The position numbers were made by a program, and so were the translations under genes. DNA of 64,000 bases from Bacillota bacterium (GTDB taxonomy: Bacteria; Bacillota_I; Bacilli_A; RFN20; CAG-826), in contig JAURFC010000001.1 in assembly GCA_030834445.1 (NCBI GenBank), forward strand, positions 214,544-278,543. Reading direction: 5' to 3'. Under the pieces are notes generated by a model. It searched no databases. It was not told the origin of the DNA and worked only from the letters and a program-made list of their open reading frames with translations. Shown here one piece after another: positions 3,460-9,735 of the stretch. Position 1 is the first letter of the stretch, and every line of letters begins with the position of its first letter.

Positions 3460-4073
3460 CGTTTTTTTGCTATCAACCGATAAATCGGTTCTCCTCTATC
3501 GCGAAAGTATCGCTCATATTCCGTGGCAACGTCCCCGTCTTCTACCGAATCATACGGTTCTTGCACGAATATTATATCATATGGAAAAAGTGCTAAATTT
3601 TTCAGGGTAAACGCGAACAAATCATGATTATCTGTCTTCATGATGAGTAACCCTGATGCTTGAAGAATCCGTGTGATTTTTTCTAAATTACCGATGGCTG
3701 TTAAACGTCGTTTATGGTGACGTAATTTCGGCCATGGATCAGAAAAATTTAAATAAATGGTTTGAAAGGTTTCATCTTTCATCGTTAAGGAAAATTTTGC
3801 AAAATCGCCTAAGAGTAAATGAACATTCGGAAGTTCATGTTCAAGAACCTTTTTAAGTGCAAAGGCAAAAACGGTAGTCGCCCGTTCAATCCCATAATAA
3901 TAAATATGCGGGTTTAGCGATGCTTTTCCTACGATAAAATCGCCTTTTCCCATACCAATTTCCAAATGAGCATGGCTGGCATGTAGGACGACAAAAGGAT
4001 GATCGTCTTGGGTAATTCGTGAGGCGTTTTCAGCAATAAGAGGCTTGGCCCAAGGTTTATTTTTTAAGCGCAT
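3456..4073 (-). CDS. trmB: tRNA (guanine-N7-)-methyltransferase
   Basis: LEIGMGKGDFIV, YLNFSDPWPKLRHHKRRLT motifs of TrmB. Confidence 0.92.
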   Translation of the reverse strand: MRLKNKPWAKPLIAENASRITQDDHPFVVLHASHAHLEIGMGKGDFIVGKASLNPHIYYYGIERATTVFAFALKKVLEHELPNVHLLLGDFAKFSLTMKDETFQTIYLNFSDPWPKLRHHKRRLTAIGNLEKITRILQASGLLIMKTDNHDLFAFTLKNLALFPYDIIFVQEPYDSVEDGDVATEYERYFRDRGEPIYRLIAKKR

Positions 4074-5433
4074 GCATGCGACCTAAATCTGCCATCGCAC
4101 GTGCATAAATACTAATACTACGCGTGAAGTCTTCTAAATCGATTTTTTCATCGTTTTCGTGAATAAAGTCTTCTTTTCCAGGAAATTTACTGCCAAAGGC
4201 AACGGTATTTTTTGCTTCTTTTGCATACGTTCCACCACCAATGGTCACCATTGGGGTTTTCTTATCACCGGTTTCTTCTTGATACGCATTTAATAAGGTT
4301 TGAATCATGGGTGAATCAGGTTGCATCAATAACGGTTCTGATACCATTAACGCCTGGAACGAAAGTGGTTTGGGTGTAATGGTCTTAACGCCTTGGGCAA
4401 CGGTATCAAAGGAGACGGTTTCAGGATATCGATAATTGGCGATTAATGAAAATTTTCCTTTGATTAAGTGAATTAAACCCACATTCAGCGTTGTTTCATG
4501 AAGGAGTTTACTGCGATAATATTGACCGAGTTTTTTCCCGTTAAATTGACTGTATTGTTGCGCAATCCTCACGAGTTCGGGGAAAGGATAAATACGCGCT
4601 AACACGCCTAATAGTTTCGTACCGGCATTCACACCCAATTGCGGTAAGGACCCATGAGCCGCTTTTCCAAACAAGGTGATGGTTGTGGTTTTTCCTTCAT
4701 GCTTAACCGAATAGGGAAGTTTAGTGGCTCGCAAGATCGGTTCAATACGATCATAGCGATCAATAACAGCCGTCGCTTCATCAATCACGGAGTTGGCCAC
4801 AATGCCAGCCCGAATTTCATGAATCGAGGGCCAGGCTACTTTTCCAGAAATTTCATAATTAGCAATCCCTTTTTCTCCGTAGATTAACGGAAAATTACCA
4901 TCGGGGGTAAACCCACTTTCCGGGTAAGGTTTTTTTAATTGATGGAAGTAATATTTTAAGCAACCGCTGCCTTTTTCTTCATTACCACCAATGACAAGCC
5001 GCACTTGATAACCCTCAATGAGGGAATGATCTTTCAAGAGTTTTAAAGCATAAAATGCTGCTAGGGCAGGACCTTTATCATCTGAGGTCCCTCGACCATA
5101 CATTTTTTCATTTTCAATCACACCACCAAAAGGGGGATGAATCCATCCTTCGGCAACGGGAACGACATCCGCGTGCGCATACACACCAATGAGTGGGCCA
5201 TTTCCAATGGTAATTTCTGTTGCATGACCATCACAATAATCGACTTTGAATCCTTCTTTTTCAGCAAGTTTTCCGATAAACTGTAATGCTTGATAAACGC
5301 CTTCACCATAAGGTTTCTTTTTACCAATCGTTTTTTCATCGTGAATGGAATTAATTTGAATCCAGGAACTTAATTGACGAATCGCTTCCTCAAAATAAGG
5401 TTCTGCATAAGTTTGAAATGGGGTTTTCATCAC
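4057..5433 (-). CDS. pepV: M20-family dipeptidase (PepV-like)
   Basis: IGVYAHADVVPVAEGW, GRGTSDDKGPALAAFYALK, GGNEEKGSGCLKYYF motifs. Confidence 0.85.
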   Translation of the reverse strand: MMKTPFQTYAEPYFEEAIRQLSSWIQINSIHDEKTIGKKKPYGEGVYQALQFIGKLAEKEGFKVDYCDGHATEITIGNGPLIGVYAHADVVPVAEGWIHPPFGGVIENEKMYGRGTSDDKGPALAAFYALKLLKDHSLIEGYQVRLVIGGNEEKGSGCLKYYFHQLKKPYPESGFTPDGNFPLIYGEKGIANYEISGKVAWPSIHEIRAGIVANSVIDEATAVIDRYDRIEPILRATKLPYSVKHEGKTTTITLFGKAAHGSLPQLGVNAGTKLLGVLARIYPFPELVRIAQQYSQFNGKKLGQYYRSKLLHETTLNVGLIHLIKGKFSLIANYRYPETVSFDTVAQGVKTITPKPLSFQALMVSEPLLMQPDSPMIQTLLNAYQEETGDKKTPMVTIGGGTYAKEAKNTVAFGSKFPGKEDFIHENDEKIDLEDFTRSISIYARAMADLGRMHALKK

Positions 5434-5434
5434 G

Positions 5435-6055
5435 TTATCTCCTTGCGTTAATTATACGACGAATGCTCGGAATTTTCGAGGATGCAACCGCAAGCGTAGG
5501 CAGTAAGAAAAAAGCGATGAGGGCTTCCCAAATGCCATTGAGGCTGAGCACCAAAAGAATAAACGTCCAATACGTTTCATTAAAGCCAATGCCGGCGAGC
5601 GCTTCAAGCACATTTTGTCCTTGTAATAATCCCATGATGCCTAAAACAAGCAAGGTATGCATTACGGTAAAAATCGCTGCAAACATGGCTAGTACACTTC
5701 GTTGAATCCAAACTGTTTTTAGTAACGTTTGAATCAAAGTAAATCCGATTCCCGCCAGGAGACCAAACATGAGGCGTGGGGTAATGGAAATTAATGGGTT
5801 TTGAAAGAAGGGATCGAGAATTCCCGTTGGATTGGCACTGGCTTGCCAAAACGAAAGAAAGCCAAATAAAAAACCATAATATAATCCCCCTCGCCAGCCA
5901 AATAAAAATGCACCGACAAGGACAGGAATGTGCATGATGGTAAAGGATACCGCAGGATTAATCGTAATAAAGCCTAAGGAAGGTATCAGTCCCATTAAAA
6001 GCAAAATGGCCGTCAGCATTGCATTAAACGACATCACAAAAAGACGTTGATTCAT
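5435..6055 (-). CDS. ECF transporter S component, likely pantothenate (PanT-like)
   Basis: 206 aa polytopic membrane protein, with INPAVSFTIMHIPVLVGAFLFGWRGGLYYGFLFGFLSF characteristic of ECF S components; overlaps coaX. Confidence 0.7.
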   Translation of the reverse strand: MNQRLFVMSFNAMLTAILLLMGLIPSLGFITINPAVSFTIMHIPVLVGAFLFGWRGGLYYGFLFGFLSFWQASANPTGILDPFFQNPLISITPRLMFGLLAGIGFTLIQTLLKTVWIQRSVLAMFAAIFTVMHTLLVLGIMGLLQGQNVLEALAGIGFNETYWTFILLVLSLNGIWEALIAFFLLPTLAVASSKIPSIRRIINARR

Positions 6056-6822
6056 AAAAATAACTCCTTGTTTTTTTGATAAATTGTGAATAAACCATCA
6101 ACATTTAAAAAAGGATCCCATTGAACATCGCTAGGTAGATGATCGTTAAAATAATGACTGTACCCTCCCGTCATAATTTTTTTGCATGGATAACCCATTT
6201 CTTTTTCAATTCCATTCATGAGATTAAAGACCATCGCTTCATGACCCAAAATTACACCTGATGTAATTGAATCAGGGGTGTTTTTTCCAAGAATTTTTGT
6301 GGGTCGTTTTAAGGGAATATCCATGAGTTGAGACGCTTTTCCAATGAGTGCTTGATAGGAAATCATAAACCCAGGAAGAATACTAACGCCAATCAAACGA
6401 CCGTGTTGATCAATACCGATGAGTTTTGTTGCCGTCCCTAAATCTGCAATGATACAGGGATAGCCATAGCGGTTCATCGCTTGAACCCCATCGACAACTA
6501 GATCACTCCCAAGTTCGCTAGGATGGTCAATTTGTATGGGTAGTCCTGTCTTAAAACCTTTGGAAAAAACAACCGGTTTTTTGTGAAGGAGTGCGGTTAA
6601 AATCGTTACCATCATCGGGGTGATTGAGGGCACAACACTACTGATGAAAATTGCTTCTGGCAAGGTTAAACAATACCGCGAGAGCATCGGTTGTAATTTT
6701 ATTGTAAATTCATCTTCGGATAAATTATGTTCGGTAAGAACGGTAAAAAAAGCAGTTCGCTTTTCGTTTTCATAGGTTGCAAAGCTTAAGGCAGTATTGC
6801 CAATATCTAAGACTAAAACCAT
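6052..6822 (-). CDS. coaX: Type III pantothenate kinase
   Basis: MVLVLDIGNTALSFATYEN, SSVVPSITPMM, IIADLGTATKLIGI, GGVI/SGVILGHEAM motifs. Confidence 0.9.
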   Translation of the reverse strand: MVLVLDIGNTALSFATYENEKRTAFFTVLTEHNLSEDEFTIKLQPMLSRYCLTLPEAIFISSVVPSITPMMVTILTALLHKKPVVFSKGFKTGLPIQIDHPSELGSDLVVDGVQAMNRYGYPCIIADLGTATKLIGIDQHGRLIGVSILPGFMISYQALIGKASQLMDIPLKRPTKILGKNTPDSITSGVILGHEAMVFNLMNGIEKEMGYPCKKIMTGGYSHYFNDHLPSDVQWDPFLNVDGLFTIYQKNKELFL

Positions 6823-6883
6823 AGTACCTCCGCTCTCATCTTGTTACCAAGTATGATGCTAGTGTAAGTATAAACTATCGGCA

Positions 6884-9289
6884 CTAAATGACGATAAAAT
6901 TTACTAATTTATTTTTAACGACAATTACTTTTTTAATGGTTTTACCCTCAAGATATTTTTGCACTTCAGGTTTTGCTTGAATCACGGTTTGAACCGCTTC
7001 ATCACTTAAACCATTTTCAACTTCAATCGCCACCTTAAATTTTCCATTTAAGCTGACTGCAATCGAGAGCGTCGATTGAATGAGTTTCGTTTCATCATAG
7101 GTCGGCCAAGGTGAAAAGGCGAGCGTTCCCTCAAATCCTAAAAGCGACCATAATTCTTCGCCAAGATGGGGAGCAACACACGAAAATAATTGAATAAAAC
7201 CTTTTAGATATGGACGATATATCGAGGGTGCCTTATATGCTTCATTAATGAAAATCATCATTTGCGAAATCGCCGTATTCATTTGTAAATTTTCAAAATC
7301 AAGCGTAACTTTTTTTACAAGGGTATGATACGCAAAATCCAACGATTGATCATTTGCGTCTTGTTGAAGGGATTGATAATCTGGAGCTACCATGAGGCGA
7401 TAGACACGGTCTAGAAATCGCCGTGCCCCTTCTAGCCCACTATTGGACCAAGGAAGTGACGCTTCAAGGGGTCCCATAAACATTTCATAAAGACGTAACG
7501 TATCGGCACCAAATTGATCGATAATTTCATCAGGGTTGACAACATTTCCGCGAGATTTTGACATTTTTTCTCCGTTTTCACCTAAAATCATGCCTTGATG
7601 AAAAAGTTTTTTAAAGGGTTCTTGGGTCGTAACAACCTCTAGGTCAAATAAAAATTTATGATAGAACCGAGCATAAAGTAAATGCAAGACAGCATGCTCA
7701 GCACCCCCCACATAAAGATCCACGGGTAACCAATGTTTAAGGAGTTTTTCATCCGCGATTGTCGTGTCATTTTTGGGATCTAAATAACGAATATAATACC
7801 AGCAACTTCCCGCCCATTGAGGCATGGTGTTTGTTTCACGTACATACCGTTTTCCATCAAGGACAACATCGAGCCAAGATCCTGCATGAACTAAGGGAGA
7901 TTCACCCGTACCGCTTGGTTTAAACTCTTTTAATTCGGGTAGTAATAAGGGTAGCTCATCCACTCTAACAGGAACGATTTCTCCGGTTTCTTTTTCAAAC
8001 ATGACCGGAATGGGTTCTCCCCAATAACGTTGACGCGAAAACAACCAATCCCGAAGTTTATAATTGGTTTTCCAGCGACCTTGTTGCGTGGCAATCAGTT
8101 TTTCTGTGATGATTAGTCGAGCATCTTCAATCAACGTCCCATTCGCGTTTTCAGAGGCGATGTGGGGTGCATCATCAATCATCGCCGCGCTTCCATCAAA
8201 CCCTTCCAAAACAGGAATTATCGGCAGATCATACGTTTTAGCAAAGGCAAAATCACGTTCATCATGGGCAGGAACGGCCATGACGGCACCCGTACCATAA
8301 CCATAAAGAACATAATCAGCGACCCAAATGGGTAATCGGGCTTGATTGACTGGATTAATGGCATAAGCTCCCGTAAATACTCCTGTTTTTTCTTTATTAA
8401 GTTCGGTTCGATCTAAATCAGATTTTGTTGAAACCACTCTTCGGTATGCTTCAATGGCATCACGTTGCGAAGCCGACACAATGACATCGACCAGGGGATG
8501 TTCTGGAGCAAGGACACAATACGTAGCACCATACAAGGTATCCGCCCGCGTCGTAAAGACTGTAAATTGTTCTGACGTTTTTTCAACTTGAAAATCGACT
8601 TCAGTTCCCTGTGATTTCCCAATCCAGTTTTTTTGCATATCCAAGGTGGATTTGGGCCAGTCTAAACCGTCAAGTCCATCGAGTAAGGAATCCGCATAGG
8701 CGGTAATTTTTAGGACCCATTGACGCATTAATCGCCGTTCGACAGGGAAGCCACCTACTTCGGATTTTCCATCAATCACTTCTTCATTGGATAAAACTGT
8801 TCCTAATGCCGGACAAAAATTAACGGGTTTTTCATCAATATAAGCGAGACCTTTTTCGAGAAATTTTAAAAAGATCCATTGCGTCCACTTGTAATATTGC
8901 GGATCCGTCGTTGCAAGTTCTTTCGTCCAGTCATAACTAAACCCAAGGGCTTGAATTTGTTTTTTAATATTCGCGATATTTTTTTCAGTAAATCCCGCAG
9001 GATGATTATTAGTTTTTAACGCGTATTGCTCGGCAGGCAAGCCAAACGCATCCCACCCCATGGGATGCAAAACGTTATACCCTTGCATCCGTTTCATACG
9101 GGCGATAATATCGGTGGCCGTATAGCCTTCAGGATGACCAACATGGAGTCCTTGGGCAGAAGGATAAGGAAACATATCCAGGATGTAGTATTTGGGTTTT
9201 GAAAAATCATAGACATCGGTGACAAAAATTTGCTCTTTTTCCCAATAGGCTTGCCACTTCGGCTCGATTTTTTTGTGATCGTAATTCAT
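6884..9289 (-). CDS. leuS: Leucyl-tRNA synthetase
   Basis: 801 aa with [21 protein letters not shown] (HIGH), [15 protein letters not shown] (KMSKS), editing domain; RBS GGAGG. Confidence 0.97.
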
Positions 9290-9300
9290 TGCATTTCCTC

Positions 9301-9455
9301 CAATAAAAAAACGTCCATTTTGAAGGACGCTTTTAAGCGCGGTACCACCTTACTTTACACGTGAACGTGCACACTCAAACCCTTTTAACGCAAGGGTACG
9401 AATTGATACATTTTGGGTGAGAAGAAGGGACGCCCTTCGTATTCCAAATCAATTA
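9301..9455 (-). promoter_or_regulatory. T-box riboswitch leader of leuS (tRNA-Leu, CUC specifier) with transcription terminator
   Basis: Reverse strand reads AAGGTGGTACCGCGCTT (T-box motif, 9335-9351), then hairpin CGTCC..GGACG plus T-run (9301-9330). Small Stem I at 9401-9454 contains CTC followed by A (9418-9421). The UGGU bulge complements ACCA (discriminator A). -10-like TATGCTAAAAT lies upstream. Confidence 0.9.
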
Positions 9456-9486
9456 AATGTATTTTAGCATAATTAAGCAAAATATG

Positions 9487-9540: not shown

Positions 9541-9735
9541 ATGGCAAGAGTATGCAAAGTTTCAGGTAAAGGACCCATGACGGGAAATGCCCGTAGTCAT
9601 AGTTTACGTGCGACACGTCGTACGTGGAATGTTAATTTACAAACCTATCAAATTACGGAAAACGGTGTGACCAAATCTGTGAAGATGTCCGCCCGTGCCT
9701 ATCGCAGTTTGATGAAAAATCAAGCTACCCGATAA
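9541..9735 (+). CDS. rpmB: 50S ribosomal protein L28
   Basis: MARVCKVSGKGPMTGNARSHSLRATRRTWNVNLQ. Start set at ATG 9541 by RBS GGAGGAG; the ORF track extends further upstream. Confidence 0.93.
   Translation: MARVCKVSGKGPMTGNARSHSLRATRRTWNVNLQTYQITENGVTKSVKMSARAYRSLMKNQATR

Follow-up and report, generated by a model that had tools for sequence, protein, structure and literature searches.

The DNA analysed here, referred to as the window, is a stretch of 64,000 nucleotides from a genome of ~1.01 Mb in 36 contigs. On its minus strand, which carries all features described below unless stated otherwise, a T-box leader runs from position 9454 to its terminator-marked end at 9305 and is followed by a GGAGG Shine-Dalgarno sequence (9301-9297), located 3' of the terminator and outside its hairpin, and then by leuS (6884-9289). 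This gene encodes a leucyl-tRNA synthetase (LeuRS) of 801 amino acids with Pfam matches to the LeuRS editing domain and to class I synthetase domains. The T-box leader proper, which begins with Stem I and ends with the antiterminator, occupies 9454-9323. Located 3' of leuS and separated by small gaps are genes for a type III pantothenate kinase, the substrate-specific component of an ECF transporter, and an M20 peptidase, and no clear terminator was found after leuS in this region (4057-9289). The small gaps and the missing terminator suggest that the leuS T-box may also control these downstream genes.

An extended −10 promoter element, TGCTAAAAT (9461-9469), was recognized by reading the sequence. 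It ends at 9461, seven nucleotides before Stem I, and predicts a transcription start at ~9454, where Stem I begins. A consensus scan yielded an alternative, overlapping promoter (TTCACA-16-TATGCT, 9493-9466). Beyond the promoter and upstream of the leader lies rpmB (9541-9735), which is divergently oriented on the other strand. The extended −10 element recurs in L008 and L009, and as the variant TGGTAAAAT in L010. These three are the nearest relatives (MAGs from Bacilli), and their LeuRS proteins share 97%, 81%, and 74% identity, respectively, with that of the window. The record title of L010 (CAMBSI010000001.1) describes a Staphylococcus epidermidis MAG, but this title looks wrong, as its LeuRS and leader are those of the window's genus.

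Stem I comprises only 54 nucleotides (9401-9454). It forms a base helix AAUUGAU/AUCAAUU (9454-9448/9407-9401), a middle helix UUGG/CCAA (9447-9444/9416-9413), and an apical hairpin with six base pairs and a three-nucleotide loop (9438-9424), all of which are present in the minimum free energy (MFE) structure and supported by covariation in nine species. The internal specifier loop AAUAC/UUCUCAC presents the leucine codon CUC (9419-9421), which agrees with both leuS and the tRNA-Leu(GAG) of the genome. A one-sided bulge, AAUGU (9408-9412), sits at the junction of the base and middle helices, where a kink-turn would be expected. It is found in all nine species with a length of 3-6 nucleotides and no conserved sequence, and the GA motif was not seen by eye in any of them. 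When Stem I (9454-9401) is folded alone, the MFE and centroid structures are identical, with a free energy of −12.0 kcal/mol. This energy is just mildly better than that of shuffled sequences (14 of 200 are as good), and thus support for Stem I comes from the species comparison. In a longer version of the leader, the MFE structure instead pairs ACAUUU with AAAUGU at the expense of the Stem I base. This pairing was rejected because it is broken at two positions in L008, where AAUUGAU/AUCAAUU stays intact.

Straight after Stem I, the leader carries a Stem IIA/B pseudoknot with the F-box (9379-9400), in which the helices CGU/GCG and ACCCUU/AAGGGU are arranged in the order CGU-ACCCUU-GCG-UUAA-AAGGGU. 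The pseudoknot is supported by a compensatory C-G to U-A change and by five covarying pairs. Because zero bases separate the end of Stem I (9401) from the start of IIA/B (9400), Stem II is absent. Stem III, UGCACG-UUCA-CGUGUA (9371-9356), is supported by folding and nine-species covariation. The antiterminator (9323-9351), indicated by an Rfam match and by covariation, consists of helix A1 (AAGG/CCUU), the T-box bulge UGGUACC, and helix A2. Its UGGU sequence (9347-9344) is complementary to the ACCA end of tRNA-Leu(GAG). A terminator hairpin with a run of seven T residues (9305-9334) uses as its 5' strand AAAAGCGUCC, which overlaps the 3' side of the antiterminator. The two structures are mutually exclusive through this common strand, as in the usual switch, and the computed energies are −6.2 kcal/mol for the weak antiterminator versus −12.7 kcal/mol for the terminator hairpin.

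Much of this anatomy had been anticipated in a preliminary description of the locus. Its strikingly small Stem I of ~54 nucleotides, with the same sequence and pairings, is reproduced by the isolated fold, and its placement of CTC (Leu) in the specifier loop is borne out by the invariance of UCUCAC in the nine species. The T-box sequence, the terminator with its T-run, and the UGGU/ACCA pairing likewise agree with the sequence and with the tRNA end. One assignment has to be revised, in that the ACCCTT...AAGGGT pairing taken as Stem III-like is a helix of the IIA/B pseudoknot, and Stem III is the hairpin described above. The preliminary description also overlooked the missing Stem II, which is the feature that makes this leader odd against the known T-box classes.

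A search with T-box models and a comparison with the leuS leaders of relatives had been proposed as checks, and both support the assignment. The Rfam T-box model RF00230 matches positions 9476-9320 with 54.6 bits (E = 2.6e-11), although no T-box in the window is reported at the Rfam gathering threshold, which is 93 for this model. Because the other T-boxes of the host genome are likewise below this score, it is best regarded as an annotation threshold chosen by curators rather than as a defining biological feature. When 279 genomes of the order were surveyed with LeuRS as the anchor and the regions upstream of leuS were read, leaders of this short form were found in nine species, which come from three genera within a single uncultured family of Bacilli. 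Four of these species belong to genus g1 (the window included), one to g10 (L194), and four to g30 (L305, L307, L312, and L314). All nine leaders score far below 93 (33.3-54.9 bits). Their Stem I regions span 47-57 nucleotides and differ considerably in sequence, but share the same arrangement.

The nine leaders were aligned with a model and by hand; a MAFFT alignment, in which L009, L010, and L031 had their Stem I base in the wrong place, was rejected. In the retained alignment, 94.7% of the cells pair, and two-sided changes are found at 27 of 38 pairs overall and two-sided compensatory changes at 15 of 17 pairs in Stem I, counts that are inflated by the fitting of the alignment to the structure. 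None of 500 shuffles reaches this level of pairing, and shifted registers give only 37-51% (at most 50.5%). L307 is misplaced, which slightly weakens the nine-row statistics. A covariance model of the short form, built from eight of the nine leaders that it separates, returned the nine with E-values of 1e-19 to 1e-33 among 224 genomes of the family, whereas every other T-box was at 2e-14 or weaker.

The host genome carries five other T-boxes, upstream of valS, ileS, thrS, pheS, and alaS (the last two assigned from reading the translations). All five have a Stem I of roughly 85-100 nucleotides and, by reading, a distal hairpin loop with a motif of the GTG-AA type. Loss of the distal domain in this host is therefore specific to leuS. 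In a LeuRS tree, g10 and g30 group as a single clade (support 99/98) next to g3, g20, and g21, genera in which the leuS leaders retain a distal domain, while g1 is placed elsewhere with weak support. A single clade of the short-form genera (g1, g10, and g30) is not rejected (p-AU 0.2). Because g1 stands apart in the tree and yet the AU test allows one clade, the leuS leaders have lost the distal domain either once or twice. Among 395 genomes across the class, the best matches outside the window that were read keep the distal-domain motifs, with the asnS leader L341 as a possible exception.

Several further variants were encountered in the family. In the leuS leaders of g30, Stem III also appears to be missing, and the part that begins with Stem I and ends with the antiterminator measures about 110-122 nucleotides. 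The thrS T-boxes of two other genera, g25 (L214, L216, and L217) and g18 (L215, L231, and L369), have a short Stem I with an apical UAUA loop. They are devoid of the distal domain but keep loop-E-like and kink-turn-like sequences and a Stem II hairpin, and all of them fall below the Rfam cut-off. These leaders suggest that distal domain loss is recurrent. The reverse reduction is seen in some g27 leuS leaders (L099, L317, L318, L226, and similar), which keep the distal domain and have lost Stem II and IIA/B. An informal reading revealed no leader, among those read, that lacks both the distal domain and IIA/B.

A terminator of another type is present in leuS leaders of g3, g20, g21, g10, and g30 (L107, L277, L096, L294, L194, L305, L307, L312, and L314). 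In these, the 5' strand of the antiterminator together with the T-box, AAGGUGGUAC, pairs with GUAUCACUU, UACCAUCUU, or CACCUU, and helix A2 is enclosed within the hairpin. The computed energies are −13.6 to −18.3 kcal/mol, compared to −4.5 to −8.1 kcal/mol without that 5' strand. The window leader differs from these leaders in using the ordinary terminator.

The sequence features of the leader indicate that it is a real, and probably functional, structural variant of the T-box riboswitch family. Specifically, we assign a probability of roughly 85% to the reading that it is a minimal, transcription-attenuating T-box responsive to tRNA-Leu(GAG). From the anatomy and its conservation, we infer antitermination by the uncharged form of this tRNA. 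Its anticodon would pair with CUC and its ACCA end with UGGU, thereby stabilizing the weak antiterminator and permitting transcription of leuS when leucine is short, whereas the charged tRNA would give no such stabilization and the terminator would form. With neither an elbow platform nor a Stem II S-turn available, binding must depend on base-paired contacts and spacing. It would presumably involve the two paired contacts, both G-C pairs of CUC:GAG, and a spacing set by the pseudoknot, and the altered specifier loop (5' AAUA/3' UCUCAC) possibly helps. Recognition of the tRNA elbow would, on this reading, be dispensed with in function. The features of the host tRNA-Leu(GAG), which has ordinary GG and TTC loops, do not explain the missing platform. 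The other tRNA-Leu isoacceptors of the host carry the anticodons UAG, UAA, CAA, and CAG. An extra U·G37 pair (UCUCA with U33-G37) was also considered; it was set aside because such tRNAs usually carry a methyl group on G37.

Other explanations for the small Stem I were weighed against this minimal T-box. A canonical, long Stem I might have been missed if transcription starts further upstream, a prospect that the preliminary description had itself raised, and the start at ~9454 is indeed a predicted one. However, this scenario is hardly credible given a −10 element directly upstream and the divergent rpmB beyond it. Moreover, as the pseudoknot follows immediately on the 3' base of Stem I, a further helix would lack a 3' strand. 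With the predicted start at the first base of Stem I, there is no room for a longer stem.

Alternatively, the T-box could have decayed, with tRNA sensing lost and only a fixed attenuator left in front of leuS. Two tRNA-contacting modules are gone, and regulatory decay would be unsurprising in a host genome of this small size. We nevertheless consider decay quite unlikely, because the leader retains its specifier loop, F-box, UGGU, and antiterminator pairing. Nor would decay leave helices that have been preserved by compensatory changes over such deep divergence. It is also conceivable that the T-box works but that its secondary contact has been replaced, either by a protein (e.g. a kink-turn protein of the L7Ae type sitting on the 3' bulge) or by the apical hairpin, whose RNA would make a new contact with the tRNA. 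The presence of both the bulge and the hairpin in all nine species is compatible with such a replacement. This idea is doubtful, however, as neither the bulge nor the hairpin loop has conserved sequence and a kink-turn motif was not seen by eye.

Transcriptional T-boxes generally need the distal motif, and in translational T-boxes a truncated Stem I hardly binds tRNA unless Stem II is present (PMC7583486). In glyQS, impairment of the elbow contact weakens first-step binding about 50-fold (PMC6197855). From these precedents, an efficient response to tRNA is not assured. According to the argument of a T-box review, glyQS can do without Stem II because its codon and the anticodon pair strongly; by analogy, the two G-C pairs of CUC:GAG may go part way to replacing Stem II here. 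A leader that lacks both the distal motif and the S-turn offers a direct test of the minimal needs of a T-box within the short time before termination, and would serve as a compact design module. Such leaders are missed at the default Rfam threshold (33-55 bits versus 93).

Four T-box classes are recognized, and their tRNA binding is reinforced by the distal motif, by the S-turn in Stem II, or by the two together (PMC10482949). Short forms had been described in the preliminary account as mainly actinobacterial and translational, and the literature agrees (PMC7583486, PMC10482949). Its contention that the leader is transcriptional, leucine-specific, and too small in Stem I for an elbow platform is supported by the anatomy and the nine species. 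Class I leaders of the Bacillus subtilis tyrS type (PMC10482949, PMC7583486) are alike in being transcriptional and in having an internal-loop specifier, IIA/B, Stem III, and an antiterminator/terminator pair, but they also have a long Stem I with a distal double T-loop and a Stem II S-turn, both of which the leuS leader lacks. Class I model leaders with a predicted truncated Stem I are mentioned in TBDB. Class II (glyQS) is similarly transcriptional and devoid of Stem II; however, it has a long Stem I with an elbow platform, a flexible linker, and glycine specificity, whereas the leuS leader is short, keeps IIA/B, and is leucine-specific. The ultrashort Class III leaders (Nocardia and Mycobacterium ileS) also lack the elbow platform and have the IIA/B pseudoknot, but their specifier is apical, they require Stem II, and they are translational, in contrast to the internal-loop CUC and absent Stem II observed here. 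Class IV (Actinomyces odontolyticus ileS) shares the reduced Stem I without a distal motif and the side-loop specifier, but has a Stem II like that of Class III and is mostly translational, whereas the leuS leader has no Stem II and ends in a terminator with T7.

By combining a Class IV-like Stem I with the absence of Stem II and a transcriptional output, the leuS leader fits none of the four classes. This is likely the first description of such a leader, although the literature covered is incomplete. On balance, we lean towards a fifth T-box class, which would be transcriptional, lack both the elbow platform and Stem II, and operate with codon-anticodon pairing, tRNA-end pairing, and IIA/B alone, the distal domain having been lost repeatedly (once or twice for leuS and at least once for thrS) in one Bacilli family with small genomes.
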